From positions 1 to 64,000 of IMG/VR virus record IMGVR_UViG_3300037234_000551: a stretch of 64,000 bases of DNA; one strand, 5' to 3'. The position numbers and the translations under genes are program-made. The notes under the pieces were generated by a model. That model was not told where the DNA came from. It ran no database searches and was given only the letters and a program-made list of their open reading frames with translations. Shown piece by piece: positions 16,635 through 64,000 of this stretch; position 1 is the first letter of the stretch, and every line of letters starts with the position of its first letter. The DNA is from a virus.

Positions 16635-17067
16635 AGACATGATTATTCTTGAGGAGTTAATTAGACGGGCCTATGAGCATGTGAGGCCATTCAGTTATCA
16701 TAAAGACTTAGAGTGGTTAAGTGATCCGGAACTCCGAGCGGGTCTTTTTGAGAAATTTCCCAAGTGTTATCTAAGTCTTTCAATCAATAGGAAAGACGTT
16801 CCGTTTTTCCCAATCTGTAATCGGATTGGGTTCGTCGATCCTAGGATTGTAATGTTTTCAATGAAACTTGCAAATAAGTTAGCTACTCTTGGAGATCCTA
16901 GGGTTGATGTAACCAACTTGCAGGGTGTGACAAAGAGGCTAGAGTTTTTGCATAGGAAGTACTCTAAAGAGGTTCCAAAACCAGAAGACATGGCTGTCAA
17001 GAAGGCCATGATAACCAGAATGCTGAGTAAAATTAAGAAATATTTGGCCGCTCAAAAGGGTGAGTAA
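16618..17067 (+). CDS. Hypothetical protein, 149 aa
   Basis: ATG 16618 lies 9 nt after GGAGGG; ATG 16612 is also possible. The open frame upstream is only the shadow of the receiver-like gene. Helical, basic C-terminus. Its stop overlaps the beta' start (TAATGA), so it is translated together with RNA polymerase 1. Unknown. Confidence 0.65.
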   Translation: MKHTDKDMIILEELIRRAYEHVRPFSYHKDLEWLSDPELRAGLFEKFPKCYLSLSINRKDVPFFPICNRIGFVDPRIVMFSMKLANKLATLGDPRVDVTNLQGVTKRLEFLHRKYSKEVPKPEDMAVKKAMITRMLSKIKKYLAAQKGE

Positions 17068-20000
17068 TGATTAGACTCCTTGACGTTGATAAGTTTGTCA
17101 AAAGTTTGACTCCGGTAACTTCGACTGACTATTGGCTTAGGACGGGAGAATTTCATCCAGAAGGTCTTTTCTCTGAGTCAATTTTTGGACCAGTTGGTTC
17201 TAGAGATAGGAGAACAAAATACTCGTATGTGAATCTCCATACTACTACAATTCATCCTTCTGCATATACGATTCTAGCTCAGCTAGATAAGAAAGTCGAA
17301 AAGTTCTTATCTACGGAAGAGCAATTTGTTCTGGATACTAATGGTCGGTTGAAAATTGAAGATGGAGGAGTGACCGGCATAAAGGCCTTTATTGAGCTAT
17401 TTCCTGATATAAAGTTTCGTGCTGACACAAGTCAAAGAAAGAAATTTGTTAAAGTACTTAATGATGCGTATAAAAAGAAAACTCTTTTCATTGATAAACT
17501 TCCAATCATCCCTCCAGATTTTCGTTCTGCTTTTCAAGACGATGCCGGCAATTGGGTAGTTGATGAAATGAATGATATTTATCTGGCGATCATACGTCGT
17601 TCATTTCAAGTTCAGAGTTCGGCAAAAACTGGTCCTCTGTTTGATCTGTTGAATTGGGGATTACAATCATCAGTCATTGACCATGATAAGTATATTAGAT
17701 CAAAGATAGCTAAAAAGAATGGAATTATTCGTCAACAGTTAGCTGGAAAGAGAGTTGATTTTTCTGGTCGTGCAGTGATCACACCAGGACCTAGTTTAAA
17801 GGTTAATGAAATTGGCCTTCCATTTAGAATGGCAGTTAGTTTGTTTGAACCTTTCATTATTCATCATTTGTTATATTCTGGAAAGGTTGATAGAGATGCT
17901 CTCGAGATAGGAGTCAAGGCATTTACTGAATTAGAGTTATCTGTTGATAGTGTTCAAAGAGTATTGAAGTCGATTAGGGATGGGGATGAAATGCCTAAAT
18001 CTCTTTATGATTTGTTTGCTGAAGCAGCTGAAGTTGTTATGATTGATAGAGTTGTCCTTTCAAAACGAGATCCAGTATTGCATCCAGAATCTATTCGAGC
18101 TTTTAATCCGAAGTTAGTTCATGGAGATACAATTCAAATAAATACTATGCAAGTGGGTGGATTTAATGCCGACTTTGATGGTGATACAATGGCGGTATAT
18201 CACCCACTTACAAATGAATCTCAAAATGAAGCAAAAGAAAAAATGATGAGAGCTCAGTCAGGTGAGTCCTCAAGGGCAGTAACTTTTGAACTTGGTAAAG
18301 AGATGTATGTAGGACTATATACTATTACTAAAGATGTAAAGAGAACATCATCTCCTATTGCTGTGAGCGAGGAAGATTTAGAAAAGGCAACTGATCCTTA
18401 TATTCCAGTTACATATAGACGTCGAAGAACTACAATGGGTAAAGCTATTTTTAATAGTTGTTTTCCTCAAGACTTTGATTATATTAATAAATTGGCTTCA
18501 AAGAAAGTCATTAATGTTATTGTAGATGAATTGTTTAAGAAGTATGAAGATGACGTTGTAAGAGAGAGCGTTTCAAGAATGGAACGCGTTGGTTTTAAAT
18601 TTGCAACAATTATGGCCCCCAATGTTTCATTAGATCAAATTGAACTTCCAGATGAAATATATCAATTAAAGAAGGATCTAGATAAAGCATCTACTGAAGA
18701 AGCAGATACAATTCTTCGAAAAATGGAGCAGATTTTAAAGAAGCATTTAGAAGGTAAGGGTATATATGATTTAGTTGAATCTGGTGCTGCAAGAGGTTGG
18801 GGGGGTCCAATGCAGATACTGGTAGCAAAGGGAATTGTATCCGATCCCACCGGAAGAATACTAGATCCGATTAAAGGTTCATTTTCCGAGGGTCTGAATA
18901 ATACAGAGTTTTTCAATCAGTCATATGGGTCAAGAAGAGGTATAATTGATCGAGTCCATAATACTGCCGAGACGGGTTATTTCTCAAGGCAGTTAGCATA
19001 TGTTTTAGATTCTGTTGAACTTGATAGGACAGTAAGAGATTGTCGGACCGACCGGACTATGGAGTTAAAACTTGATAAAGATTTAATGAGTCGTATGTTT
19101 GGAAGAAATCTTATTGAGAAAGGTAAAGTAGTACCATTTAATGCAGCTGATTATAAAAGCGGAGATATGGTCAATGTCAGAACTCCTATTTATTGTTTAA
19201 CTCCAAAAGTTTGTTTTACTTGTTATGGTCGTTTGGTTGAAAGACATAAAAGTCCATATATAGGAATGGTTGCTTCACAAATAATTGGAGAACGTGGAAC
19301 TCAGTTAATAATGAGAACATTTCACACTGGTGGAGCTGTTGAAATTAAACGGAAGGAAATGTTGAAAGATATTGTCAGTAATGAACCATCACTTACTCAA
19401 TCAAATATTAAGAAATACTTGGAACAACAAGAGAGTTATTTAGTTGCCAAGGAGGATTGTATTGTAACTATTGATTTATCAAATTACGATATGAATAATA
19501 ATATAAGAATTGCGGATGGGGTAGTATGGGTTAAGAGTCTTTTATGTCAGATAGATTATAAGGATATTCAATTTAGTATTGCTCTAGATTATCCTGTTGA
19601 ACTTCAAGCAAGAAATGTAGAGAAAGTTGGAAAGGAATTTATCAAATTATACTTCTCTAAAAATACTTATGTTCTTGAAGTAACTCTTGAGGCAGTAGAA
19701 ATTGAGAAGCAGGTCAATTATGTTACAAGATTGTTAGCAGGTCGAGAGATTTATAAAGATGTAAGTCATTTATTTAGAAAATTATTTGCTGTTTATAAAG
19801 AGATGTCTGGTATGGATATTGTCCATCTTGAAGTTCTTATATCAAATGTACTAAGAGATAGATCCGATACAAGCACTCCTGCACGATTGGGTAAGACTTG
19901 GGATCCAATAATGATAAACTTTAAAGAGATTGTTTTTACTACAGGTTTTGTCCACTCTGTTGCTTTTGAAGATATAAGGAAAGCTGTTTGGACTGGTTTA

Positions 20001-20069
20001 ACAGCTGATCGAACATTCGAACCTAGTATTCTTGAAAAGGTTGTAACTGGAAAACTTGTGAAAGGTTAA
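17067..20069 (+). CDS. RNA polymerase beta' subunit (set 1), unsplit
   Basis: 1000 residues carrying the whole beta' plan in one chain: the N-terminal FHPEGLFSESIFGP (about 29-41), RQQLAGKRVDFSGRAVI, the catalytic NADFDGD at 367-373 (three Mg-binding Asp), a bridge-helix region ESGARGW, and trigger-loop-like GTQLIMRTFHTGGA (about 744-757). The N-terminal zinc-binding cysteines found in bacterial beta' and in the second copy (51977) are missing here, though VCFTCYGRL keeps one downstream CxxC. Jumbo-phage multisubunit polymerases such as those of phiKZ relatives usually have beta' split into two or more proteins, so a single chain is notable. Forms set 1 with the beta at 20412. Confidence 0.95.
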   Translation: MIRLLDVDKFVKSLTPVTSTDYWLRTGEFHPEGLFSESIFGPVGSRDRRTKYSYVNLHTTTIHPSAYTILAQLDKKVEKFLSTEEQFVLDTNGRLKIEDGGVTGIKAFIELFPDIKFRADTSQRKKFVKVLNDAYKKKTLFIDKLPIIPPDFRSAFQDDAGNWVVDEMNDIYLAIIRRSFQVQSSAKTGPLFDLLNWGLQSSVIDHDKYIRSKIAKKNGIIRQQLAGKRVDFSGRAVITPGPSLKVNEIGLPFRMAVSLFEPFIIHHLLYSGKVDRDALEIGVKAFTELELSVDSVQRVLKSIRDGDEMPKSLYDLFAEAAEVVMIDRVVLSKRDPVLHPESIRAFNPKLVHGDTIQINTMQVGGFNADFDGDTMAVYHPLTNESQNEAKEKMMRAQSGESSRAVTFELGKEMYVGLYTITKDVKRTSSPIAVSEEDLEKATDPYIPVTYRRRRTTMGKAIFNSCFPQDFDYINKLASKKVINVIVDELFKKYEDDVVRESVSRMERVGFKFATIMAPNVSLDQIELPDEIYQLKKDLDKASTEEADTILRKMEQILKKHLEGKGIYDLVESGAARGWGGPMQILVAKGIVSDPTGRILDPIKGSFSEGLNNTEFFNQSYGSRRGIIDRVHNTAETGYFSRQLAYVLDSVELDRTVRDCRTDRTMELKLDKDLMSRMFGRNLIEKGKVVPFNAADYKSGDMVNVRTPIYCLTPKVCFTCYGRLVERHKSPYIGMVASQIIGERGTQLIMRTFHTGGAVEIKRKEMLKDIVSNEPSLTQSNIKKYLEQQESYLVAKEDCIVTIDLSNYDMNNNIRIADGVVWVKSLLCQIDYKDIQFSIALDYPVELQARNVEKVGKEFIKLYFSKNTYVLEVTLEAVEIEKQVNYVTRLLAGREIYKDVSHLFRKLFAVYKEMSGMDIVHLEVLISNVLRDRSDTSTPARLGKTWDPIMINFKEIVFTTGFVHSVAFEDIRKAVWTGLTADRTFEPSILEKVVTGKLVKG

Positions 20070-20072
20070 GAG

Positions 20073-20411
20073 ATGGAATTAAGAAAACACCATTTCGTTA
20101 AGAAGGATTGGGGTAGTGAATTGTGGTTTGAAAACAATGAATCATACTGTGGAAAACTTTTGACAATTGAAAAAGGAAAATGGTCCTCAAAGGGAAAAAG
20201 ACATTATCATCCAGTAAAAGATGAAACCTTTTTTATTTTAAATGGAACTATTTTATTAGAAGTTGAGGGTGAAGCATTTGTATTGGGAGTTGGTCAATCT
20301 CATCGTATACTTCCAGGACAGATGCATAGATTTAAAGGTGTTACTGACTGTCAATTTATTGAGGTATCTACACCTCACAAAGATGAAGATTCAATAAGGG
20401 TGGAGAATTAG
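20073..20411 (+). CDS. Cupin-domain protein
   Basis: 112 residues forming one cupin barrel: HYHPVKDETFFILNG supplies the metal-binding H-x-H and Glu, and PGQMHRF the second histidine. It resembles the C-terminal domain of mannose-6-phosphate isomerase / GDP-mannose pyrophosphorylase type sugar cupins. It lies exactly between beta' and beta with 3-nt and 0-nt gaps, so it is made with the polymerase. A role in transcription is not implied by the family; it may be a hitch-hiker. Confidence 0.8.
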   Translation: MELRKHHFVKKDWGSELWFENNESYCGKLLTIEKGKWSSKGKRHYHPVKDETFFILNGTILLEVEGEAFVLGVGQSHRILPGQMHRFKGVTDCQFIEVSTPHKDEDSIRVEN

Positions 20412-23400
20412 ATGGCTATTTTTAAACTCGACAAAATGCGACCTTATACTCAAATTGCAACCGGTCTCCGATTCCCTCTTAAAAAGAAATTTATGCTTAT
20501 GTACTTTAGTGAGAATTCGAACTTTCTTGACGATTATCCAAAGTTGGGAATCAGACGAGTTGATGTTCGATATGCACTTGTTCCGGTTACAAAAATTCCT
20601 AGAACTAGACTGACCTCAGAAGTTAGAAAAGCATATAAGTCTTTGGGAATAATGTCGTATTCAACAAATATGAAATTTCCAGAGAATAGAAATATATACT
20701 ATGATCTATCACAATATTTAGTTGCAATTGATGAGGCATATAAACCAAAGAATTATAGACAAAGAGCTGGGTTTCTCATAAAGAATATTTTGTTTAAGTC
20801 TATTAATAGTCTTTCTCCTGAATATCAAAAAGTTTTTATGTATACTGTAGATGCAACTAAACCGATGAATCAGTTTCGTGATCGTAAAATATTTCCAATC
20901 CTTCAGATGATAAAGGCTGAAGGGGTGACATTTGATCATCTACTGTTTGGAACGATTGATGAGTCGAGTACGAAGTATCGTCTTTTAGTACAGAATAAAG
21001 AGTTTAACTATCAAAAGATGCTTACTTATATTAGGAAAGTTAAACCGATAGATATGGAGAGGGAGGAGCAGGAAAACATAAATACAGCAACAGATGTTGT
21101 TATGGCGAAAGTTTCCAAAGAGTTATCTCCTAAGAGTCAAACTAAAGTAAGAGATGCAGTCAAGACATTTTTTAATAGAGATAAAAAGGCTGCTGAAAAA
21201 GTTGTATCTAAAGAGATTAAAAAGGATGAGATGGAGCAGGTTGCTACTGCATCAATTTTATTTGATGTGAGTGGAGATTTGGATAAGTCCAAGAGGATTG
21301 CAAAATCAATTCCAAGAGAGAAAAGAATTGTTGCATTAAAGGCAGTAGATAAAGCATTTATTGATGAATTACTTAAACCTCAGCCAACAGTTAGCACCAC
21401 CGAAGATATTGTCGTTCAGACTTCTAATGTTCCAAAAATGGTTGATAATAAATCTCCTGAGCATCTTTTTCAGAAAAGACAGGTGGACTTTACGACTAAT
21501 TTGAAGAAAGACATGACGAATGTTTTCAGAACTCTTGAGAAGAAAGAAGTACCTATCAAGATTAAGTCTATAACGATAACTGATAAAGCAACTCGAAGGG
21601 GAGAATTAGATAAATCAGATATTAGTATTATAACTGTGGTACTTATTGATAATTTTGGGAATACTCATACAGTTGAAATGGAAATGCCGAAGATTGATCC
21701 TGCTTCTGGAACATTTAGAATTCATGGTAGAAGAAAATGTTTGATTAATCAAATGATTCAGAATCCCATTACTTTTCCAAAGGCACACGAGTCTAAATTT
21801 GAAAGTATTTATTCTCTGTTTCGTATATATAGTAAGAGAGGCAGGAAGAAGAGTTATCTTGAAATATTTATGACTTATCGACTTCCGTTTCTTGTAGTGT
21901 TATCTTTTGCTTTTGGTTTTAAAGAAACTATGAAATTGTATGGTGTCAAATATAATGTTGGCGAGACAAAGGTTATTAAGAAGACGGACTTTGGTGTGCG
22001 AGTTAATGAGACTCAGGCAGTATTTTTTGAGGGTGCTAATACTGAACTCAAAGAGGAATTGTGTCAATCTCTAATTCAAGCGAAACCTCATCTATATAAT
22101 GTTGAGGCACCATTTCCTGATAAGCAATATTGGAATAATTTAATTATTGCGATGACTGGTCGTATAGCTTCGACATTTTTGATTACCTCTAATGTGGAGA
22201 ATATTGTTGATCCAATTGCAAGACAAGTGCTTATGAATAAACAACTCCCGACTGATCTTCATATGATTATGAAGTATATGGCTATAGGAGTTATAGAGGG
22301 TCGTCTTGAAGATAGAAATGACTTATCTCACCAACGAATAAGAGCATCAGAGGTCCTTGCACACTTTGCTTTGAAACAAGTGCTTGCTGCATATACTGAA
22401 TATAAAGAGCAAGTTCTTGCCGGCAATACAAAAGCTGTTCTTAGGATTGTTCCACGTAAATTGTTGAGCGACTTTATAAATTCTCAAATAGTTGTTGATA
22501 TGGAATATGTCAATCCAATTGAAGAGATGGCAGTTATGACTAGGACCACTCCAATTGGTCGAAACATTGGTGGTATTCCAGATAAGAGAGCAATGCAGGG
22601 AGCTGCTCTTAATGTACATAAATCGTACTTTGGTAATGTTGATCCGTTGGATACGCCAGAGAGTGATAGTATTGGTATCACTCAGCATCTAACGGTTAAT
22701 GCTCTCATCACTTCGGCTAGAGGTTTATTTCAGACTAAAGCTGCTACCAATACTGAACACTCGGGTATGTTATCTGTTTCAAGTGCTATGATTCCATTCA
22801 TTGAAAATAATGATGGGGTTAGGATTATGATGGCGGCTAATCAATCTAGGCAAGCGGTGCCATTGAAGAACCCAGAAGCTCCTGATGTTCAGTCTGGTTA
22901 TGAGTCTATTCTACCTAATGTTTTATCAGATGTTTATGTAAAGAGGTCTCCTTGTGCAGGAAAGGTTAAATCAGTCACAGAAGATAGAATGGTAATTACT
23001 TGTAGTGCTGGAAGGGCACAAGGGATTGATCTTAGTCCGGTTCATCTTAGATCTGGAACTAGCAAGGATACTCTTAGTGTATTTAAACCCACTGTGAAAG
23101 CAGGCAAGACTGTCAGAAAGAATCAAATTGTTGCTGAGGGAAGTGCACTCGCTGGTGGAACTATGGCCTTGGGTCGAAGTCTCTTAACAGCAATGATGCC
23201 ATATAAAGGTTATAACTTTGAAGATGCAATAGTTATAAGTGATACTTTGGTGTCTGGAGATAAACTAACTTCGCTTCATGGATTGACTGAGGATGCTTTG
23301 ATTTCAAAGGATGATAGACTAATTAGTATTATTGATGTTGGAGCGAACACAAAGAAGGGGGAGCCTCTACTTCGGAGAACAATTGGCGAGATTGAAGAAT

Positions 23401-24503
23401 TACTAGGTTATGAAGAAGATGAAGGTGAGACTATAGCTGGTGGGGAATATACTCTCAAAAGCCCAGGCGGAAAGGTCGTTGAAATTGAAGTATTTTCAAA
23501 TGTTGGAGAAGCAAAATTTCCTACATTGAAAAGTTTAGTTGCAAGAACTAGAAAAAAGTATGGGGTAGCAGCGAAGGAGAAGTTCACTGTAAGAGGAGAA
23601 ACAATTAAGGGAGTTTTAGTAAGGTTCAAAATTGAACAAGAACTTCAAATTGGTCAGGGGGATAAACTCTGTAATCGTTTTGGTGGTAAGGGAATTGTAT
23701 CTCTTATTGAACCAGAGAGTGAGATGCCCCGAACTCCTTGGGGAGAAAGAGTTGAAATTATTCTGAATCCTTTGGGGATACTTGGTCGAATGAATATGGG
23801 GCAGTTATATGAATTATATTGTGGTTTAGTATCTAGGGAGTTAGCGAAGAGATTCCTTGAGATAAAGAAACAAGATCAAGTAGCTGCTTTGATGAAACGA
23901 GTTACAAATAAGTTGGATACATCAAAGAATAAAGAATACTCTAATGCTCTAGCTAACGGTATTAAAAGGTTGTCTCCTGCTAAGTTTAAGCAGATGTTAC
24001 AACAGATAAGTCAGAAGAAGGCTGTTCCTCTTATCATCCCTCCGTTCAAGGCACCTAGTCATAGAGAAATTCAAGCTGTTCTTAAGATGTTGAATTTGAA
24101 ACCTGGATATAAATTATTTATACCAGAATATAATACTAAGACTAAATCAGATGTTCCTGTTGGTTATATGTATATTTATAAACTTGAACATATTGGAGAT
24201 TTGAAAATTCATAGTCGAAGTACTGGTCCTGTGAAACCAAAGACTCTTCAACCAACTGCAGGTAAGAGAAGAGGTGGTGGCCAGAGAATGGGAGAAGCAG
24301 AAACATATTCTCTTATCTCATATAATTGTCCAGCTCTCCTTGCTGAAATGATGGGTCCTCTAAGTGATGATCATGTTACAAAGAATGAAATTGTTTCTGA
24401 AATTGTTCAGACTGGTGGTGCTGGATATAGAGAACCAAAGATAAATCCAGCTGGAGAAGTTCTTGAAAGTTACTTTACTGCTATGATGCTTTCTGGGAGA
24501 TAG
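20412..24503 (+). CDS. RNA polymerase beta subunit (set 1), unsplit
   Basis: 1363 residues. The C-terminal half has the beta signatures in order: GYNFEDAIVISD, GDKLCNRFGGKG (about 1083), NPLGILGRMNMGQLYEL (about 1117-1131), and QPTAGKRRGGGQRMGEAE (about 1276-1295). These match the bacterial KVGDKMAGRHGNKG, GVPSRMNIGQ and GGQRFGEME blocks. The N-terminal half is long and divergent, with a charged stretch at about 215-290 likely to be a helical insert. Together with the beta' at 17067 this gives a full catalytic core; no alpha, omega or sigma homologue is recognisable. Confidence 0.95.
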   Translation: MAIFKLDKMRPYTQIATGLRFPLKKKFMLMYFSENSNFLDDYPKLGIRRVDVRYALVPVTKIPRTRLTSEVRKAYKSLGIMSYSTNMKFPENRNIYYDLSQYLVAIDEAYKPKNYRQRAGFLIKNILFKSINSLSPEYQKVFMYTVDATKPMNQFRDRKIFPILQMIKAEGVTFDHLLFGTIDESSTKYRLLVQNKEFNYQKMLTYIRKVKPIDMEREEQENINTATDVVMAKVSKELSPKSQTKVRDAVKTFFNRDKKAAEKVVSKEIKKDEMEQVATASILFDVSGDLDKSKRIAKSIPREKRIVALKAVDKAFIDELLKPQPTVSTTEDIVVQTSNVPKMVDNKSPEHLFQKRQVDFTTNLKKDMTNVFRTLEKKEVPIKIKSITITDKATRRGELDKSDISIITVVLIDNFGNTHTVEMEMPKIDPASGTFRIHGRRKCLINQMIQNPITFPKAHESKFESIYSLFRIYSKRGRKKSYLEIFMTYRLPFLVVLSFAFGFKETMKLYGVKYNVGETKVIKKTDFGVRVNETQAVFFEGANTELKEELCQSLIQAKPHLYNVEAPFPDKQYWNNLIIAMTGRIASTFLITSNVENIVDPIARQVLMNKQLPTDLHMIMKYMAIGVIEGRLEDRNDLSHQRIRASEVLAHFALKQVLAAYTEYKEQVLAGNTKAVLRIVPRKLLSDFINSQIVVDMEYVNPIEEMAVMTRTTPIGRNIGGIPDKRAMQGAALNVHKSYFGNVDPLDTPESDSIGITQHLTVNALITSARGLFQTKAATNTEHSGMLSVSSAMIPFIENNDGVRIMMAANQSRQAVPLKNPEAPDVQSGYESILPNVLSDVYVKRSPCAGKVKSVTEDRMVITCSAGRAQGIDLSPVHLRSGTSKDTLSVFKPTVKAGKTVRKNQIVAEGSALAGGTMALGRSLLTAMMPYKGYNFEDAIVISDTLVSGDKLTSLHGLTEDALISKDDRLISIIDVGANTKKGEPLLRRTIGEIEELLGYEEDEGETIAGGEYTLKSPGGKVVEIEVFSNVGEAKFPTLKSLVARTRKKYGVAAKEKFTVRGETIKGVLVRFKIEQELQIGQGDKLCNRFGGKGIVSLIEPESEMPRTPWGERVEIILNPLGILGRMNMGQLYELYCGLVSRELAKRFLEIKKQDQVAALMKRVTNKLDTSKNKEYSNALANGIKRLSPAKFKQMLQQISQKKAVPLIIPPFKAPSHREIQAVLKMLNLKPGYKLFIPEYNTKTKSDVPVGYMYIYKLEHIGDLKIHSRSTGPVKPKTLQPTAGKRRGGGQRMGEAETYSLISYNCPALLAEMMGPLSDDHVTKNEIVSEIVQTGGAGYREPKINPAGEVLESYFTAMMLSGR

Positions 24504-25355: not shown

Positions 25356-25695
25356 TTTTTTTGGCAATAGACTACCTTCTATATATATTAATTTGTAGAA
25401 GGGTAGTGATTGTTGACTTTTTACATTAGGTGTATTTCACAATAATATACCCCCTTTCATAGAAGACAATTTTCTGGTTGGCATTCGCTACCCTTTTTTA
25501 ATTGTTTAACCGAGCATGTAAGACACTTGGGAGGGCTGCATTTGCGGTTCGTTGAGTTTACTCACTTGGGGTGAGTTTATTCACTTGGGTGCATTGCTCA
25601 CAAATAGAAATCAAATAAAACTCAAGTAAAACCCAACTGAAGTTTTCTTGAGTATAGGAAATTTCCGTTGGCAGAAAGGAGGATGCAAGGGGAGG
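25356..25695 (+). promoter_or_regulatory. Non-coding region with hairpin and tandem direct repeats
   Basis: No supported gene. It holds a hairpin CTACCTTCTA / TAGAAGGGTAG (about 25370-25405, one bulge). It also has two tandem copies of an 18-nt sequence TGAGTTTAYTCACTTGGG (25553-25570 and 25572-25589), plus a partial CACTTGGG at about 25525. AT-rich tracts separate these. Short tandem direct repeats in a gap after the polymerase operon could be operators, promoters or an origin-like element. Confidence 0.55.
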
Positions 25696-25920
25696 ATGAA
25701 AGGTAAAGACTTTTTAGTACCTGGTGACTATGTTGAGAAAGTGTGTAAACTGGGCAAGGGAGAGGAAACCTGTAGGTACCTGATAGTTGGTAGTGGTGGG
25801 TTTGAGTGTGGAAAAGATAGTGGATTTCAAGAAAAGATCGACAAAAATTTTGAGCAGGGAATTATGGTAGCTACAGGTGATAACTGCACAGGAATCACAA
25901 ATGTTACAGGAGCTGCATGA
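25696..25920 (+). CDS. Small Cys-containing protein
   Basis: ATG 25696 with AAAGGAGG about 13 nt and GGGGAGG directly upstream. 74 residues with four scattered cysteines (VCK, TCR, ECG, NCT), glycine-rich. Unknown. Confidence 0.5.
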   Translation: MKGKDFLVPGDYVEKVCKLGKGEETCRYLIVGSGGFECGKDSGFQEKIDKNFEQGIMVATGDNCTGITNVTGAA

Positions 25921-31172: not shown

Positions 31173-31204
31173 GACCTGGGTAGCTGAGCTACCCGGGTCC
31201 TTTT
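31173..31204 (+). terminator. Intrinsic terminator hairpin
   Basis: GACCTGGGTAGC / GCTACCCGGGTC, 12 bp with one G-U around a TGA loop, then CCTTTT. The T run is short but the stem is strong. Confidence 0.75.
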
Positions 31205-31228
31205 ATGAATTTTGAAGGAGATTTACAA

Positions 31229-32149
31229 ATGAAAAAAAGTGAACTTTTTCCGGTTTTGATAGGTTACGTTTCCGATCTCCCTCCAAACACAATTTTGGAT
31301 ATAGAAGTTTTACACCGACTCCTTGCGGATAAACGTAGTCTTAACGTAAGGGTGTCTACTCTTAAACAGTATCTTACTCTTTTGGCGAACGCGGGATTTT
31401 CAGTTAAGAAGAAAAAAATTACTAGACAAAAACCAGTATACTTTGTGGTTGGAGAAGGCAACAACTGGCCTTTCAAACTCTCTTTTTCAGAAGTGAAGGA
31501 GTTATCAATAAAGAAAGGATCAGCAAATGTTGAACTAGTTGCCTCAAGGGAAGATCTTGGTAAACCCCTAATATCTATGTATAAGAAAACTGAATTTGAT
31601 AAACCAGACTCTGTACTTGAGGTCAAAGAAGAGAAGGAATCTCCTGAATGGCACGATATAGATTTTGAGCAGTTGACAGATGAGAATCTCAAAGAAATTC
31701 TTGTTTCGACTAAGATTAGTGAAAAGTCAATTGGAAGAATTCTTTGGCAGGTTCTAGCTGATACTTTTTCTAAAATTAACGAGATGATTTTTGCGCTTGC
31801 GAACTATGAGAAAGAGCTTTCAAGGATAAGAAAGTATAAGGCTGATTTAGAAAGACAGAAGTTAGCACTTGAGGGTGAGCGAACAAATTTAGAGAATCAA
31901 GTTGAGAATATGGAGCGAACATTATCTGCGTGTGAAAGCAGAATCAAAGATTTAGAAGAATTGAACACTCAAATAGGAAGTAATTTTCTTAAAGAAGAAG
32001 AGAACACCAAGAAGCTGGAGATCGAAGTTTCTCAGTTGCAAAGAGATAAAGAAATTCTGGACAAGAAACTTAGGACAGCATTAGGTAAGCCACAAAAATT
32101 TGCAACAATTGGGGAGTTTATGCAAGCTAAGGAAGCTAAGGGAGGTTAG
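31229..32149 (+). CDS. Winged-helix plus coiled-coil protein, 306 aa
   Basis: ATG 31229 (TTGAAGGAG upstream) preferred over ATG 31205. Residues 10-80 resemble a winged helix (ILDIEVLHRLLADKR ... TLKQYLTLLANAGFSVKK...YFVV). Residues about 200-285 are a coiled coil, and the end is FATIGEFMQAKEAK. The same architecture and a similar last helix occur in the protein at 13591. It immediately precedes the topoisomerase B subunit (1-nt gap). Confidence 0.75.
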   Translation: MKKSELFPVLIGYVSDLPPNTILDIEVLHRLLADKRSLNVRVSTLKQYLTLLANAGFSVKKKKITRQKPVYFVVGEGNNWPFKLSFSEVKELSIKKGSANVELVASREDLGKPLISMYKKTEFDKPDSVLEVKEEKESPEWHDIDFEQLTDENLKEILVSTKISEKSIGRILWQVLADTFSKINEMIFALANYEKELSRIRKYKADLERQKLALEGERTNLENQVENMERTLSACESRIKDLEELNTQIGSNFLKEEENTKKLEIEVSQLQRDKEILDKKLRTALGKPQKFATIGEFMQAKEAKGG

Positions 32150-51976: not shown

Positions 51977-54682
51977 ATGCCAAGTCTTCTTGACATTAAC
52001 GAGTTTTCTAAGGAGTTAAAAGAAGTTACCTCAATAAAGATGATGGCGAAAAAGAAGTTCCATCCAAAAGGACTGTTCTCTGAGCAGATCTTCGGCCCAG
52101 TTAGGAATTTTACTTGTCAGTGTGGTACGTATTATGGAATTTCTGGTGCTGGTGGAACTTGTGCTGTATGTGAGGTTGATATTGTTAATAGTGATGAGAG
52201 GAGAAGGAAGTTTGCTAGAATAATCCTTCCTTTTCCGGTTGTGAATCCAATTTTCTATGAATTGGTAGCTGATATTGGAGGTTCAAAAATAAAAGGCCTT
52301 CTAGATAGTTTAATGAGAAATGAACAAAGTATTTTATATGTGATTGACGATGAATATGGAGTCGCTACTGATGATTCAGCGATTCCATCTGGTGCAGAGA
52401 AATTTGAGAAAGTTGTAGCAATTGACAAACTTGTAAGGGACCTTTCCCATATGTTTGTTGAGGATGGTATTCTTGAGTGGAAAGTGATTAGAGATAACTT
52501 GGACAAACTGTTTATACACAATGTCCTTGTATTGCCCCCTGACCTTAGACCGGCTGCGAAAAATATTGAAAGAAACAACCAAGTGGTTGATCAAATAAAT
52601 AGATATTACATTCAGATACTTACGAAGAAAGAAATTATGAGAGACACAATAGTTGACATACATAGGGATAAGAAGCTTTTCTATAGCTACTTTACCCAAA
52701 TTCAGAAAGATGTGAATGAGTTGTACTCACACATTATTTCTAAATTAGCAAAGAAGGAAGGTCTGATTAGGGGAAATATCTTAGGTAAGAGAATTGATTT
52801 TTCTGGTCGAGCTGTGATAATTCCTGACCCTGTATTGAAATTAGATGAATGTGTTTTACCTTACCTGATGTTTCTCGAACTGTTCAAATTACAGATATCT
52901 AAGAAACTCATAGAGATTGGTAGATTTAAATTACTGAATGATTCTATTGACTTTGTTGATGATTGTATAGAAATGAGATCTCCAGTGCTCTATCGAGTTT
53001 GTGAAGAAATTGCTGAGGATGAAGTCTGTTTACTGAATAGACAACCTTCATTACACCGATTGAGTATGGTTGGTTTTAACATCAAAATATCTCTAGATAA
53101 TGTTATTAAGATCCATCCATTAGCATGCCCTGGTTTCAACGCTGATTTTGATGGAGATCAAATGGCAGTCTACATTCCAATTTCTGAAGAATCAAAGAAT
53201 GAGGTGAGAGAAAAATTTCTCATAACGAAAAATTTGAGTAATCCAGCGAATGAGAGTTTAGCAACAATTCCAAGTCAAGACATAATTCTTGGAGTATTTG
53301 CCCTAACAAATGATAGTTTTTCTGAATTATCAAATAAAGTTGAGTTCAAGGGAGAACAAGTTAACGAAGGAGTAAAGATATTTAATGAATGTTTACCAGA
53401 GGACTATCCTCTGATTAATGAGGCAGTTAGAAAGAGAAAGTTGATGATTATACTCAATGATATTAAAAATAGATATGATGTGGAAGTTGTTCAGGAAGTT
53501 CTAGATAAGATAAAATTTATTGGTTTTAAGTACTCAACCTTATTTGGGGCGACCATGTCTCTTGACTCATTTGATGGAGATTTGTCCAAGATAAAAGATG
53601 AGATATACTCGGGTCAAAGTATAAGAAATCAGATTGAAATGATCTCTAGTGAAAAAACCACAAAGGCGCTTCGAGACAGTTTTAAGTATTCATACATGGT
53701 TGAGTCTGGAGCAAGAGGAAGTTGGGATCAGGTTGGGCAGATAATATTGACCCGAGGTTTTATCTCCAATTTCAAAGGTCAAATTCTTCAGACACCAATT
53801 AAACATAGTCTTTTAGAAGGTTTGACTCATGAAGAGTTTTTCAACTCCACATATGGTTGCAGAAAAGGACTCTTGGATGTTGCACTCAATACTGGTGCGT
53901 CTGGTTATTTGTCAAGGAAGTTAATCTTTGCTTGTGCAAATCTTCAGATTGGAGACCACGAAGATTGTGGAACAACTGATCTTCTTGAAGTCCATGTGAA
54001 GAATGATAGAAAGGCAAGAATGCTGATTAATAGGCACTACAATGATAATGGAAATCTAGATAAGATAACTAGTGAGAATCATTTATCTTTTGTCGATAAA
54101 GTAATTAATATTAGAAGTCCAATATTTTGCAAAACTTCAAAAGTATGTAGAACATGCTACGGAGACTTGTATAAAGTTTTGGATAGTAGGTTTGTTGGAG
54201 TTATTGCTGCACAAAGTCTAGGAGAGTGTAATACCCAACTCGTCTTAAGGACTTTTCATACATCTGGAGTTGCCCATGTGAAAGAGGGAGAACAAGCAGA
54301 TGATGAAGCAGTAAGACAGATGGATATTATTGGTGACCTTGCAACAGCATCTAAATTGCTACATAAGTTTGATAAGAAGAATCACACAAGTATTGTCTCT
54401 GATCTCTTTGATGTCTACAACACAAATCGAAGCATCCATCATGTTCATTTTGAATGTGTGGTTTCTCAATTAATGTGGAAAGGCACAAGAAAGTGGAGAC
54501 TGTTAGAAGGACGAGAAAAGTTAAGCCCAGAATATCACTCAGTACAGAAAGTACCAAGTTATGAGAGTTGGTTACTAGGTTTAGCATTTTCAAGACCAAA
54601 GCAACATATCTTAAAAGGAATTTTGCAACCAGGAAGATACTACGGAGTTATGGACAAGATTCTATGCGGAAAGGAGTTATAG
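51977..54682 (+). CDS. RNA polymerase beta' subunit (set 2), unsplit
   Basis: 901 residues. FHPKGLFSEQIFGPVRNFTC starts the N-terminal domain with the zinc-binding C47, C49, C62 and C65. LGKRIDFSGRAVI, the catalytic NADFDGD at 388-394 and a C-terminal SGVAHV-type trigger-loop region follow. This is a more bacterial-like beta' than set 1, which lost the zinc site. One chain carries the whole subunit. GAGGAGTAATA precedes ATG 51977. Confidence 0.95.
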   Translation: MPSLLDINEFSKELKEVTSIKMMAKKKFHPKGLFSEQIFGPVRNFTCQCGTYYGISGAGGTCAVCEVDIVNSDERRRKFARIILPFPVVNPIFYELVADIGGSKIKGLLDSLMRNEQSILYVIDDEYGVATDDSAIPSGAEKFEKVVAIDKLVRDLSHMFVEDGILEWKVIRDNLDKLFIHNVLVLPPDLRPAAKNIERNNQVVDQINRYYIQILTKKEIMRDTIVDIHRDKKLFYSYFTQIQKDVNELYSHIISKLAKKEGLIRGNILGKRIDFSGRAVIIPDPVLKLDECVLPYLMFLELFKLQISKKLIEIGRFKLLNDSIDFVDDCIEMRSPVLYRVCEEIAEDEVCLLNRQPSLHRLSMVGFNIKISLDNVIKIHPLACPGFNADFDGDQMAVYIPISEESKNEVREKFLITKNLSNPANESLATIPSQDIILGVFALTNDSFSELSNKVEFKGEQVNEGVKIFNECLPEDYPLINEAVRKRKLMIILNDIKNRYDVEVVQEVLDKIKFIGFKYSTLFGATMSLDSFDGDLSKIKDEIYSGQSIRNQIEMISSEKTTKALRDSFKYSYMVESGARGSWDQVGQIILTRGFISNFKGQILQTPIKHSLLEGLTHEEFFNSTYGCRKGLLDVALNTGASGYLSRKLIFACANLQIGDHEDCGTTDLLEVHVKNDRKARMLINRHYNDNGNLDKITSENHLSFVDKVINIRSPIFCKTSKVCRTCYGDLYKVLDSRFVGVIAAQSLGECNTQLVLRTFHTSGVAHVKEGEQADDEAVRQMDIIGDLATASKLLHKFDKKNHTSIVSDLFDVYNTNRSIHHVHFECVVSQLMWKGTRKWRLLEGREKLSPEYHSVQKVPSYESWLLGLAFSRPKQHILKGILQPGRYYGVMDKILCGKEL

Positions 54683-54933
54683 TGAAAGTAGAAGGACTTC
54701 TACATTCATTTGATGTGTCTTGTCAAACGAGACAATTTACTAGGAGGAGGTTATTGAGATTTATAAGATTGAATGCTCATTTACTAAAAGACCATCAATT
54801 TTATGGATGGATAATGAAAAAAGTTGATAGGAACTATATGACTGATATTACAGATAGTGATGTGATAAATTTTGTAACATGGATTGCAAAAAAGACGGGA
54901 GGACAAGTTGAACATACTCAATCCGTACTTTAA
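54682..54933 (+). CDS. Small basic protein between beta' and beta
   Basis: GTG 54682 overlaps the beta' stop with AAGGAGTTATA upstream. 83 residues, basic, helical (RRRLLRFIRLNAH). It overlaps the beta start by 26 nt. Perhaps a small polymerase-associated protein, by position only. Confidence 0.6.
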   Translation: MKVEGLLHSFDVSCQTRQFTRRRLLRFIRLNAHLLKDHQFYGWIMKKVDRNYMTDITDSDVINFVTWIAKKTGGQVEHTQSVL

Positions 54934-57907
54934 AGTTAATGAGGAGAACAATATTTTTTCAATTCGAAAAAATGAACTCTCCTCCTTAACTGAGAAGGTA
55001 AGGGAAATTCTGAAACCTGCTGAGGAACTAGGATTTGAAGTAACTGATTTTTGTATCAAAGAATCAAAGTTTACCTCAGGAGAGTTGTTCAAAACCCTAA
55101 AGCAGAACTTGGTTATTAAGTTACAAAAAGGGAACTCTGAGATTGATCTGAGTATGGCAATACCAAAACTCATTGATCATAATTACATAATGATAAAAGG
55201 TAGGAAAAAGATTCCACAATTCCAACTTTTTGATATTCCCATTGTTACAAGAGGAAAATCAATTAAGTTAAGAACGAATGTTGCTTCAATAATGGTCTTT
55301 GAGGAAAGGCAACAACCACATATAAAATTGAGTATTCTTGGTAAGAAAGTCTCATTTGCTTTAATTATGTTTGCTTACTATGGATTAGAAGAAATGAATA
55401 CACGATTTGGTCTGTCTAATATGACAGTAAGTGGAAATACTGCACTTGATAAGCTAATGCTAGACTTGAAAGTCTACTATGATAACTCAAGAGATTGGAC
55501 ACAAGATGATTTTATGAATGAGATTGGGAGACATTACTCTCAATACAATGTGAAGTCAAAGGGAGAAGATCTTATATATGCCCTTGATTTAATTCTTAAA
55601 ACTGATGTAATGTCAGCTGAATACTTTGCGACTGGATCTATATTAGAAGAATTATATGAGGCCATTGCTGGTAAAGAATATGATGATACCGACTTTAGAA
55701 ATAAGAGAGTTAGATGTGCAGAATATATGATTTTATCAAAGGTTTCAAAGGCTGTCTTTGATTTATGTATGTCTAATAGGACAACTCGTCAACCGAAGTT
55801 TAATATAAACTCATCTCAGATTCTCTCTGAGTGTAATGTGTCTGATATTGTTCAATTCGATTTTGCGATTAACCCAATTGAAGAATTGACCAGGTTATCA
55901 AGAGTAAGTCTGATTGGACCTGGAGGTTTTAATCGTGAGAATGTTCCTGAGCATTTGAGAGACATTTGTCCTAGTATGTTTGGGAGAATATGTCCAGTTG
56001 ATACGCCAGATAGAGATAACTGTGGAGTTATTCAGAACTTGCTTCCAAATGTGAAATTAGATAGCAATTTGAGATTTTCTGAGGAGGTTCTGGATAAACA
56101 AGTTATTTCTATTCCTGTTTCTATGGTTCCATTTCTTGAGCATAATGATCAGACGAGATTGCAGATGTCTGCATCTCAGATGAGACAGTCAATAATGCTG
56201 AGGAGTTTTGATAAACCCATAATTCAATCTGGTTGTGAAGGTCTATACACTGACTTCACTCAATTTGTTAAGAGAGCAAAAAAGAGCGGAGAAGTCGTAC
56301 ATCAGGATGGTAAATTCTTAGTTGTTAAATATGATGATAATGAAACTGATGTTTTTGATATTGCGTATCGAAAGATATATGTTGAGAATATGGATATTAT
56401 GAAAGTTTATGTTAAGGTTGGGGACAAGTTTGGAGCTGGAGAAATTCTAGCTGAAAGCGGTTTTGTCACTGACGGAGAAATAAACTTTGGAAGAAATCTG
56501 TTAACCGCTGTCATGACATACTATGGTCATAATTATGAAGATGGAATAGTTATATCTGACCGATTAGTTAAAGAGCGAATTTTTACTTCTATACACTATC
56601 GAGATTTATCATTTACGGTTCCACCAAATAAAGTTCTTTTGAGTCTAGCTAATAGTGATTATAAACCATTACCTGATATAATGGAAGATATAGATCCTGG
56701 TCAACCATATGCGACAATGAAAGAAGTAACATCTGGTTTAGACTTTTACTCCGTTTTTGAAGAACAAATGCCTCTTACAACCAGAAAGAAGGTTCGGATA
56801 ACTGATATAAGTATATATGCAAATGTGTGGAATAAGGAGATACCTGAGTATAGAGATTGGATTGAAAAGAAGCTAGAAGATCAAAAACAGAAGGAAAGTG
56901 AATTTCAAAAGGTCATATTTGACCATCTTCCAACTGTAGAAGCAAAACAGTTTATTCGAGATCGAAATTTGAGTAAATTCTCTCACATTGGTCGATACAA
57001 AGTTAAGGGCGAACCAGTTAATGGAGTTCGTATTGAGATGTTTGGTGTCTATCTTAGACCAATACAGGCGGGAGATAAAATTGCAAACAGACATGGTAAT
57101 AAGGGAGTTATCTCTAGGATAGTTCCACATGAGAAAATGCCTCAACTTCCGGATGGAAGGAATGTTGATATTTGTATAAATCCTCTAGGGATAATTTCGA
57201 GAATGAACATTGGTCAGTTATTTGAGTTACACTTAGCAATGTCTTTTGTGGACTTAAAAGCAAAACTAATTGAAATGATTGATAAGGAGGAAAGTCAGAA
57301 AGACATTAAGAAAGCGTTGCTTCATTATATTAAGACTGCGGATAATACTGAAGACAAATGGTATTATAAGCAGTTTAAAGAGCAACTTCCCAAAACAATT
57401 GATAAAGGGTTTATTGATAAGTTGTCATTGATTCAACCTCCATTTGAGTCTGTTTCATTGGAGATGGTCAAAGAAGCAATGGGGAGAACAGGAACTCAAT
57501 TTGAGTATGGTATTTATGATCCTATCTCGAAAGAAAATCTTCTAAATAAAATTGCTGTTGGTTATATCTATTTCTTTAAGATGGTTCATATAGCTGAGAC
57601 AAGACTTGCAGCAAGGGGGATTGGATCATATGCAAAGAAAACCCTTCAACCGTTAGGAGGTAGAAAACACAGGGGCGGTCAGAGATGTGGAGAAATGGAA
57701 ACTGCGTGTCTAATTGCACATGATGGACCAGTTAATTTGGCTGAATTTCTGACAACAAAATCGGATTGTATAGACTTGAAAAATAGATATATCAACGAGA
57801 CGATTGAGTCAGAGTTCATCAAACCAAAAGAAGATGAAGATGATGTTTCTGAGTCGGTTAAATTGTTAGATGCATACTTTAATGTGATTGGAGTTTCGAA
57901 AGAATGA
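54908..57907 (+). CDS. RNA polymerase beta subunit (set 2), unsplit
   Basis: TTG 54908 is preferred (GGGAGGAC upstream); an upstream TTG at 54884 is possible. 999 residues. Beta signatures in order: MTYYGHNYEDGIVISD, GDKIANRHGNKGVIS (about 722), NPLGIISRMNIGQLFEL (about 757-773), QPLGGRKHRGGQRCGEME (about 912-929). Shorter than bacterial beta and than set 1 (1363), chiefly at the N-terminus. With 51977 it forms a second complete core. Confidence 0.95.
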   Translation: MNILNPYFKVNEENNIFSIRKNELSSLTEKVREILKPAEELGFEVTDFCIKESKFTSGELFKTLKQNLVIKLQKGNSEIDLSMAIPKLIDHNYIMIKGRKKIPQFQLFDIPIVTRGKSIKLRTNVASIMVFEERQQPHIKLSILGKKVSFALIMFAYYGLEEMNTRFGLSNMTVSGNTALDKLMLDLKVYYDNSRDWTQDDFMNEIGRHYSQYNVKSKGEDLIYALDLILKTDVMSAEYFATGSILEELYEAIAGKEYDDTDFRNKRVRCAEYMILSKVSKAVFDLCMSNRTTRQPKFNINSSQILSECNVSDIVQFDFAINPIEELTRLSRVSLIGPGGFNRENVPEHLRDICPSMFGRICPVDTPDRDNCGVIQNLLPNVKLDSNLRFSEEVLDKQVISIPVSMVPFLEHNDQTRLQMSASQMRQSIMLRSFDKPIIQSGCEGLYTDFTQFVKRAKKSGEVVHQDGKFLVVKYDDNETDVFDIAYRKIYVENMDIMKVYVKVGDKFGAGEILAESGFVTDGEINFGRNLLTAVMTYYGHNYEDGIVISDRLVKERIFTSIHYRDLSFTVPPNKVLLSLANSDYKPLPDIMEDIDPGQPYATMKEVTSGLDFYSVFEEQMPLTTRKKVRITDISIYANVWNKEIPEYRDWIEKKLEDQKQKESEFQKVIFDHLPTVEAKQFIRDRNLSKFSHIGRYKVKGEPVNGVRIEMFGVYLRPIQAGDKIANRHGNKGVISRIVPHEKMPQLPDGRNVDICINPLGIISRMNIGQLFELHLAMSFVDLKAKLIEMIDKEESQKDIKKALLHYIKTADNTEDKWYYKQFKEQLPKTIDKGFIDKLSLIQPPFESVSLEMVKEAMGRTGTQFEYGIYDPISKENLLNKIAVGYIYFFKMVHIAETRLAARGIGSYAKKTLQPLGGRKHRGGQRCGEMETACLIAHDGPVNLAEFLTTKSDCIDLKNRYINETIESEFIKPKEDEDDVSESVKLLDAYFNVIGVSKE

Positions 57908-61146: not shown

Positions 61147-61370
61147 TAGTCATTACATGCTCAGAGGAGTGTGATGATCTTCGTAGTTTTTTAGAAAACA
61201 CTGCTGATATATATTACTTATTTACACAAGACGAACTCATCTCATACAGAGAGTTGCCGAATTCTGTAAGAAGTAGAATTTTTGATATGGCCTTTGTTGA
61301 TGGTAGGGCCAGTAAACAATTATACCGAAAAAGAAGGGAGGAGCTTTATGGAGAATGTGCTACTGCTTAA
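61116..61370 (+). CDS. Small Cys-cluster family protein, 84 aa
   Basis: MLNYPCRNCLVVITCSEEC, then LRSFLENTADI and ELPNSVRSRIFDM: third tandem copy. Overlaps the previous gene by 31 nt and the HNH gene by 23 nt. Confidence 0.7.
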   Translation: MLNYPCRNCLVVITCSEECDDLRSFLENTADIYYLFTQDELISYRELPNSVRSRIFDMAFVDGRASKQLYRKRREELYGECATA

Positions 61371-61869
61371 TGCTGACTACACTTACTTGTGTTCGGTTCG
61401 TTGGCAAAGGGCGGTATGCCTTATGATTCAGAACAAAGTTGAAGTTTTGAAGCATGGTGACCGTCAAGTTGCTAACGTTGGGCGGACCGTCGTGATCACT
61501 CTTCCTTTGATCCTACGGCTACTGAGAATGGTCCGCTCAATTTACAAGAACAAAGTCCCATTTAGACCAAAGAATGTGATAATCCGGGACAACTGGACTT
61601 GTCAGTACTGCGGTAGCACGGATAAAGGAAATTTAACAATAGATCATCTAATTCCAAAGTCACGCAACGGAAAACATAATTTTGAAAACTGTGTGGCTTC
61701 TTGTAAAGATTGCAATAACAAGAAAGGCAATAGGACTCCAAGAGAAGCAAATATGTTTATCAAGAGGCAACCCTATCAGCCTACCATTTCTGAATTTCTC
61801 ATGCTGAGAATGAAAGAATACGGAATCCATGATCTATTGAAGGAGATATGGTGTGACTGCTCAAAGTGA
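61348..61869 (+). CDS. HNH endonuclease
   Basis: 173 residues from ATG 61348 (GGGAGGAGCTTT upstream). Zinc pairs CQYC (85, 88) and CKDC (119, 122) surround the HNH core TIDHLIPKSRNGKHNFEN with catalytic His 100. A free-standing phage HNH nuclease of the type with an N-terminal VLLLNADY segment; could be homing or a packaging/recombination nuclease. No Tas-type Nop domain is visible in it. Confidence 0.88.
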   Translation: MENVLLLNADYTYLCSVRWQRAVCLMIQNKVEVLKHGDRQVANVGRTVVITLPLILRLLRMVRSIYKNKVPFRPKNVIIRDNWTCQYCGSTDKGNLTIDHLIPKSRNGKHNFENCVASCKDCNNKKGNRTPREANMFIKRQPYQPTISEFLMLRMKEYGIHDLLKEIWCDCSK

Positions 61870-62002
61870 ATGGAAAGCGATGCATGAACTAAGTTGGTTA
61901 GGTAGAATGTGGAGAAAGGTACAACTTTACTTCACAGGTCATTGGACGCTCTGTGATGAATGTAGGCGATTTAGTCCTCAACTGTATTGTCCATGGTGTT
62001 AA
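61853..62002 (+). CDS. Tiny zinc-ribbon protein, 49 aa
   Basis: GTG 61853 with AAGGAGATATG upstream, TAA 62000-62002. Amphipathic first half, then LCDEC...YCPWC, a C4 zinc ribbon at the very C-terminus. Overlaps the HNH gene by 17 nt. Confidence 0.6.
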   Translation: MTAQSEWKAMHELSWLGRMWRKVQLYFTGHWTLCDECRRFSPQLYCPWC

Positions 62003-62288
62003 ACGTCTTGGTGGCGATGTGGCGGCAACACATCTGCGTCTCAAAGACCTCAGACGCAACAGTCCTAAGTAGGTTAAAACTGAAAGGGCGGTTACCTCAA
62101 ACAACAGGGTAACGACAAATTAGTAGATCCCCTGCTCGGGAAGAGTGAGGCACTACTAGAAATGGTTTACCGTGTCGGCGAAAATCCGGCCCACCAAGTT
62201 AAATATCTTGGCCGAGCGTGACCCAGCACGTCCGGGAGCTCTGACTGGACTATATTCAACTCCCGGGTCAATTTTAAGGAGAGGAAAA
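62003..62288 (+). ncRNA. Structured non-coding region, possible RNA
   Basis: No convincing gene. Several GC-rich stems: TGCGTCT/AGACGCA (about 62035-62060), GTTACC/GGTAAC around a CAAACAACA loop, TAGTAG/CTACTA with an inner CCC/GGG, and CCGGGAG/CTCCCGG (about 62232-62266) closed by GACCC/GGGTC. It does not match tmRNA, RNase P or group I intron signatures I know. Lies between two zinc-rich small genes and near tRNAs, where large phage RNAs are often found. Confidence 0.45.
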
Positions 62289-63130: not shown

Positions 63131-63210
63131 GTGTCGGTGGCCCGAATTGGTAAAGGGCGCAGGGTTGTGGCCCCTGTTGAGCGTGGGTTCGATTCCCACC
63201 CGACACCCCA
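63131..63210 (+). tRNA. tRNA-His (GTG)
   Basis: Acceptor GTGTCGG/CCGACAC, D arm GCCCGAATTGGTAAAGGGC, anticodon stem CAGGG/CCCTG with loop TTGTGGC (GTG), T arm GTGGG-TTCGATT-CCCAC, C73 and CCA encoded. The base before the acceptor is A instead of the G-1 that normally pairs with C73 in bacterial tRNA-His. Confidence 0.9.
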
Positions 63211-63223
63211 TGAAAGGATATCA

Positions 63224-63502
63224 ATGCATGAACTACAAGATTGTGTGAAATATTTGCGTAAGAGCATTCATAATGCTCATATGATTAAAGTTATACCTAT
63301 TGTTGTGGTACTGGATGCCGATGGAGAATTGATACATAATCACATGGAGCATCCAGAACCAATTACTAGACCTCAACTTATAAAAATTTTGGCCAACTTA
63401 CATGAACAAGTTGCTAAAGATTATAATAATCTAAAAAAGACAGCAGCAGATCCAAAGGAAGCAGAAAGAATTCTACATTGTTTAAGTGGACCAATCCCAT
63501 AG
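63224..63502 (+). CDS. Hypothetical protein, 92 aa
   Basis: ATG 63224 follows GAAAGGATATCA. A helical, His-rich small protein (HNAHM, HNHMEHPEP) with two cysteines. The last 18 nt coincide with the first, degenerate unit of the terminal repeat array. Frames extending upstream pass through tRNA-His. Confidence 0.6.
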   Translation: MHELQDCVKYLRKSIHNAHMIKVIPIVVVLDADGELIHNHMEHPEPITRPQLIKILANLHEQVAKDYNNLKKTAADPKEAERILHCLSGPIP

Positions 63503-64000
63503 AGCAACCCAAACACAACGAGTGAACCAGCCCATGAGAGCAATCCAAACACAGAGAGTGAACCAGTTTGAGTTAGTAAACCAATGACGAAGAGTGAACC
63601 TTCTACCATCAGAAAACCATACGATGAGAGTGAACCAAGTGAAGAGGAGAAATCCATTGGGACAGAGTGAACCAACAGTCCATAGAAACCTAGATAGTAA
63701 AGTGAACCAATGCTATCCAGTTAACCTGAGCGGAGGAAGTGAACCAGAAGTCCGCAGTAACCAACGAACATGAGTGAACCACGAACACGAAATAAACCAG
63801 CCGAGATTAGTGAACCAGAGTATGTCAGAATCCAACAAAAGAAAGTGAACCAGTCTGTATAAGATAACCTATAGAAACTAGTGAACCAGTATGGTAAAGA
63901 AATCCTTTGCGGTCAAGTGAACCATGGAGCCCGAGTAACCCGGTGATCATGTAGTGAACCACGGGATGCCAGTAAACCACTCCTTTTCAGTGAACCTGTA
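63485..64000. repeat. TIGR-like array (tandem interspaced guide RNA), 36-nt period
   Basis: An 8-nt anchor recurs every 18 nt, 29 times, to the window end and probably beyond. Odd anchors are AGTGAACC, invariant in 14 of 15 (the first is AGTGGACC); they start at 63485, 63521, 63557, 63593, 63629, 63666, 63701, 63738, 63773, 63809, 63844, 63880, 63916, 63953 and 63989, that is every 36 nt with at most 1 nt deviation and no drift. Even anchors are a degenerate AGNAANCC (AGCAATCC, AGTAAACC, AGAAAACC, AGTTAACC, AGATAACC...). Between anchors lie unique 9-12 nt spacers. Two short repeats, two spacers of about 9-10 nt and 36 nt overall match the organisation I know for TIGR arrays, whose RNAs guide Nop-domain Tas proteins to DNA. 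No Tas gene is visible in the window. Transcription strand unknown. Confidence 0.85.

Follow-up and report, generated by a model that had tools for sequence, protein, structure and literature searches.

The closest described relatives of the element analysed here are the TIGR-TasA, TIGR-TasH and TIGR-TasR systems (Faure et al. 2025, PMC12045711). Their arrays alternate two different repeats of 8-12 nucleotides (nt), named edge and loop, with 9-nt spacers; both repeats contain a box D and a box C, and cuts in the middle of successive edges release RNAs of 36 nt (PMC12045711). The box motifs are said to diverge among arrays, and the position of the array next to tas is a typical placement, not a strict definition (PMC12045711). 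Here, we describe an array of this design at positions 63485 to 64000 (+ strand) of the window, i.e. the first 64,000 nt of the IMG/VR virus record IMGVR_UViG_3300037234_000551. We hold with high confidence that it is the dual-repeat array of a TIGR-TasA system in a lineage of jumbo-type tailed phages. Its architecture is that of a TIGR array, and adjacency to tas is the one usual feature that is missing: the system is of a known kind, with an array unusually remote from tas.

The contig bearing the array is a fragment of 72,602 bp, which IMG/VR lists as 'linear', and the window cuts the array. Inside the window are 14 complete units and the start of unit 15, recognized by exact edge repeats and their spacing, with none expected by chance; extending the sequence past 64000 showed that the array continues to contig position ~64866 and comprises 38 units. 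The paired-edge pattern AGTGAACC-N26-30-AGTGAACC occurs 13 times, in all cases between 63521 and 63996, but not once in 100 dinucleotide-preserving shuffles; the repeats are therefore not due to chance. Since AGNAANCC alternates with the AGTGAACC anchors along the array, the alternation reported in a preliminary description, made from the letters of the window alone, is genuine. The 23 units with a length of exactly 36 nt, once aligned, divide into 9+9+9+9 nt, which are the edge AGTGAACCA, spacer A, the loop AGNAANCCA and spacer B. Position 9 of the edge is an A in 19 of these units and position 27 of the unit, which belongs to the loop, is an A in 17, whereas the spacer letters are random. 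Units of about 36 nt with two unique spacers had been proposed, and every unit indeed differs in its spacers; their length, however, is 9 nt (range 8-10) and not about 10. In units of 35, 37 and 38 nt, loops or spacers deviate by one or two bases in length. The exact 8-nt edge is found in 35 of the 38 units and the remaining edges have one mismatch; two deviating edges are AGTGGACC, the first of the array, and AGTGCACC.

The whole contig is syntenic with positions 67868-135440 of a phage contig of 277,131 bp (G006) and aligns partially with two others (G005, G018); each of the three carries an array at the syntenic site. The 5' end of the window array is the degenerate edge AGTGGACCA (63485..63493, +), which overlaps the 3' end of the upstream reading frame and is not clearly truncated; the G006 array at the syntenic site likewise opens with AGTGGACC. 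Unit 2 (63521..63556, +) consists of the edge AGTGAACCA, spacer A GCCCATGAG, the loop AGCAATCCA and spacer B AACACAGAG, and its homologue is the opening unit of the arrays in G018, G005 and G006. At the 3' end, a shortened edge AGTGAA is followed by GGGG, an ending which is the same in G018. The start codon of the next small gene lies 8 nt past the last edge, so that the array runs directly into the gene; a terminator hairpin was not seen after the array, where no formal terminator scan was made.

The preliminary description had further stated that half-units of 17 and 19 nt compensate each other, keeping the odd anchors within 1 nt of an exact 36-nt grid, and had taken this as a hint of a possible distinct variant. 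When 37 units are followed, they move off this grid by +6 nt, and the lag-1 correlation amounts to -0.13 (permutation P 0.27). A deviation of no more than 1 nt across 14 units is seen in 17% of the shuffled orders. The tight grid is a small-sample effect, the compensation is chance, and it does not support a distinct variant. The proposed TIGR-like geometry, in contrast, agrees with the published one: alternating edges and loops of ~9 nt, two 9-nt spacers and a 36-nt period. Edge and loop share the pattern AG....CC(A), with AG as box D and CC/CCA as box C; AG stands in place of the UG of TasR-type arrays. Further common features are the box C 'CCA' ending both repeats, the shortened terminal edge, the carriage by phages and a Nop-fold Tas protein in the lineage. 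In contrast to the reported systems, for which 5-15 units are typical, the array has 38, and its counterparts in relatives are separated from tas by 133-142 kb, tas having additional arrays beside it. CRISPR arrays also combine repeats with unique spacers. However, they are based on a single direct repeat of ~25-36 nt and grow in an end-polar manner, whereas here two short repeats alternate with paired 9-nt spacers and shared guides sit inside the arrays; no cas genes turned up, although no formal search for them was made.

The effector of the window phage has to be deduced from relatives, because its own contig contains no Tas. A Nop-fold Tas protein was found in the syntenic relatives G006, G022 and G001, and also in a contig with a related Tas (G035). 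G006 has its remote array, the orthologue of the window array, at 75563-76472; a further pair of arrays (219477-220837) lies directly upstream of tas (218138-219298), ~142 kb away from the remote array and far outside the stretch that is syntenic to the window contig. In G022, a separate assembly of either the G006 phage or a very near relative, the arrays are located at 31186-32095 and 163856-165216 and tas at ~165.4-166.6 kb, which corresponds to a distance of ~133 kb. The start codon and the ribosome-binding site of tas come directly after the last edge of the adjacent array. The G006 Tas protein consists of 387 amino acids (aa) and, as a single sequence, matches TasR with E 3e-13. Its AlphaFold model (mean pLDDT 80) gave TasR (9mty, E 6.5e-8) and TasH (9w04, E 1.8e-7) as best PDB folds, followed by the IS110-type IS621 and by archaeal box C/D Nop proteins. 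Thus, TasR (PDB 9mty) and TasH of a Salicola phage (PDB 21kl, 9w03, 9w04) are the best matches of the lineage Tas with respect to both sequence profile and fold. In contrast to these enzymes, no HNH, RuvC or other nuclease domain was recognized in the lineage Tas, for which Pfam gave only Transposase_20/helix-hairpin-helix; because of this, we infer that it is of the TasA type. A single-sequence tblastn search with the lineage Tas in an annotated phage collection gave no match.

Tas genes accompany this repeat in many viral contigs. The edge AGTGAACC occurs in triplicate in 98 stretches of IMG/VR contigs, in chains of up to ~46 units. When the proteins encoded at these loci were clustered with no family given in advance, 49 of the loci shared one family of ~309 aa, and a profile search identified Tas in 58 of the 98 loci, a count that covers the flanks retrieved around each array. 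Compared with PDB, the profile of array-associated proteins (A1) matched TasH (E 5e-51), TasR (E 3e-41) and IS621 (E 7e-11); in Pfam, the family hit only the helix-hairpin-helix of Transposase_20. Other phages (L073, L029, L059, L076 and more) keep the edge AGTGAACC with very different loops such as GATTTTAACA, AGCGAGCCA and ACAGACACA, from which it follows that, among TIGR clades, conservation is much stronger in the edge than in the loop. Among the 39 matches of the repeat pattern in bacterial assemblies (genome_contigs), almost all are protein-coding repeats; only two contigs from metagenome-assembled genomes of Spirochaetales (L179, L186) carry a AGTGAACC array together with a Tas gene.

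Individual guides are shared between arrays. The spacer pair of unit 8 (63738..63772, +; guide GAAGTCCGC / ACGAACATG) is identical in the Tas-adjacent array of G006, in which unit 31 also recurs. Unit 7 (63701..63737, +; guide ATGCTATCC / (A)GCGGAGGA) has its guide in the remote array of G006 as well, and in G035, which encodes a Tas with 83% identity, units 7, 26 and 27 recur in the arrays adjacent to tas. In recurring units, both spacers are kept as an intact A/B pair, while the loop letters differ; several units show no spacer difference in 18 nt across phages with 73-91% DNA identity, although homologous units are recognized by their spacers and the conservation of spacers relative to loops can therefore not be scored without bias. 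Within the clade, which has 185 guides, 33 homologous guide pairs were counted, as compared with 0-3 after shuffling the B spacers, which indicates joint inheritance of A and B spacers. The order of shared units is mostly retained at the syntenic site, and other units were gained or lost inside the array.

Several findings weigh against a TIGR-TasA system in the window phage. The 72.6-kb contig is devoid of a Tas gene; the arrays of TasR have UG as box D where this array has AG; and none of our searches found a target. The preliminary description had correctly noted the lack of Tas among the window genes and had expected the effector just beyond 64000 or elsewhere in the genome. The first location does not apply, whereas the second agrees with Tas genes beside the same repeats in many viral contigs and with the distance observed in G006. 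A search with the Pfam model Nop (PF01798), which had been suggested for the extended contig, detected no Tas in these phages; as the model is too distant, its silence means little. The lack of Tas on the contig could also be explained by a loss of tas from the window phage, leaving a decaying array which is a relic or has another function, for example as a source of RNA decoys. The two deviating edges, the degenerate loops and the units of 35-38 nt would fit such an orphan. On the other hand, no edge has more than a single mismatch, unchanged spacer pairs persist among diverged phages whose loops differ, and the contig is only a fragment, with the tas gene of the relative lying far outside the syntenic stretch. 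We therefore regard the orphan as improbable. Even less likely are protein-binding iterons, a ParB-like centromere or partition site, or a replication origin, none of which would involve an RNA. A short invariant motif at regular spacing is what such sites offer, and ParB-like genes form operons with some TIGR loci (PMC12045711), but iterons would not need spacers that are conserved in pairs between genome positions and phages, nor two different alternating anchors; moreover, most loci with these repeats adjoin Tas proteins, and there is no helical phasing because the lengths drift. A repeat within a protein-coding gene (36 nt correspond to 12 codons) can practically be dismissed: it is what most bacterial matches of the pattern are, and frames of 84-131 aa run across the array on the reverse strand, but units of 35, 37 and 38 nt break every frame, the frames on the reverse strand are short, with overlaps in different phases, and the spacers lack a periodicity resembling that of peptide repeats.

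For a TIGR-TasA system, the published family suggests the following course of events. The array would be transcribed from the + strand, and in this phage it probably shares one transcript with the small gene at 63224..63502. Tas would bind the precursor RNA via box D (AG) and box C (CC/CCA) of edge and loop, and cleavage inside each edge would release tigRNAs of ~36 nt. The ribonucleoprotein, formed with the product of the distant tas gene, would then bind DNA at sites where the two strands base-pair with spacer A and spacer B; a single Tas may take up guides from arrays on opposite sides of the genome. Since no nuclease domain was recognized in the Tas of the relative, the target DNA is likely bound, bent or blocked and not cut, which would silence other mobile elements or host genes. 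The discoverers of TIGR systems leave open what the guides target, how arrays change and which role the nuclease-less TasA plays (PMC12045711). The lineage offers orthologous arrays in related phages, guides common to different genome positions, and one Tas presumably serving arrays that lie 130-140 kb from each other. Comparisons of these guides open a way to the targets and to array evolution that single loci do not offer.

A first lead of this kind comes from the substitutions between guides of the clade, of which 37 out of 62 affect spacer positions 3, 6 and 9 (binomial P 2e-5) and, among internal positions, 19 out of 36 affect positions 3 and 6 (P 0.002); these P values are optimistic, as a few comparisons are near-duplicates, perhaps one or two pairs are due to chance, and position 9 borders the next repeat. 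Transitions account for 24 of the 37 substitutions, and guides of the type CAN-GCY-TGC / CCN-GAR-TGG look like synonymous variants. The bias suggests coding targets in a fixed phase, which is a lead and not a result; the other clades compared showed no codon-like phase. If the signal is true, the targets are conserved genes of the host or of rival elements. It is conceivable, though we consider it rather doubtful, that the phages share a slowly evolving repertoire of guides, in which whole A/B units move between remote and Tas-adjacent arrays and track protein-coding targets, the codon phase running through spacer A, 2 nt and the reverse complement of spacer B. Alternatively, and no less interesting, the TasA of this lineage may tolerate mismatches at every third base.

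The target searches covered the own and the related genomes with gaps of 0-2 nt, both geometries and at most 3 mismatches; the matches were few, and shuffled guides gave as many over 1.49 Mb of related DNA. Five exact or degenerate scans of IMG/VR with selected guides gave 13, 4, 0, 1 and 94 matches, which pointed to no common gene or contig. The single match of the degenerate scan with unit 31 is in frame, in a small phage gene on a 65-kb contig; we take the gene to resemble DUF1064. Neither the rest of this contig nor the full contigs behind some of the other matches contained convincing further guide matches, and palindromic targets, with spacer A resembling spacer B, were not enriched. An excess of amino-acid-level matches in G006 turned out to be an artefact of two guides matching Thr/Ser-rich proteins: G006 (~1.6-22 kb; L122) encodes proteins with long Thr/Ser runs, which confound a search at the peptide level.

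The small gene upstream of the array (63224..63502, +), whose start we place at MHELQDC..., ends inside the first array unit, an overlap read from the sequence. It is preceded by a tRNA-His (GTG) gene (63131..63207, +), which is context only and outside the system. Downstream of the array, at contig positions 66100-66395 (L001:3101-3396), an intergenic stretch of ~296 nt is strongly folded and 84-91% conserved in G018, G005 and G006; it has no Rfam match and is a candidate structured RNA. A second intergenic candidate RNA without Rfam match lies at 61985-62280 of the window, just downstream of an HNH gene (61282-61869); ~190 nt of its middle are present in G018 and absent from G005 and G006, which looks like an insertion. 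At 25527-25569, the window matches the Rfam motif DUF3800-VI RNA (42 bits), and short tandem repeats occupy 25553-25703. The phage encodes two complete beta'/beta pairs of multisubunit RNA polymerase, at window positions 17067-24503 (1000/1363 aa) and 51977-57907 (901/1007 aa); for one of the two beta' proteins, the nearest annotated phage relatives are only 27-29% identical. It also encodes the GTP cyclohydrolase FolE2 (PF02649, E 6e-64; L001:4605-5456, contig ~67604-68455), which is perhaps a member of a 7-deazaguanine pathway.
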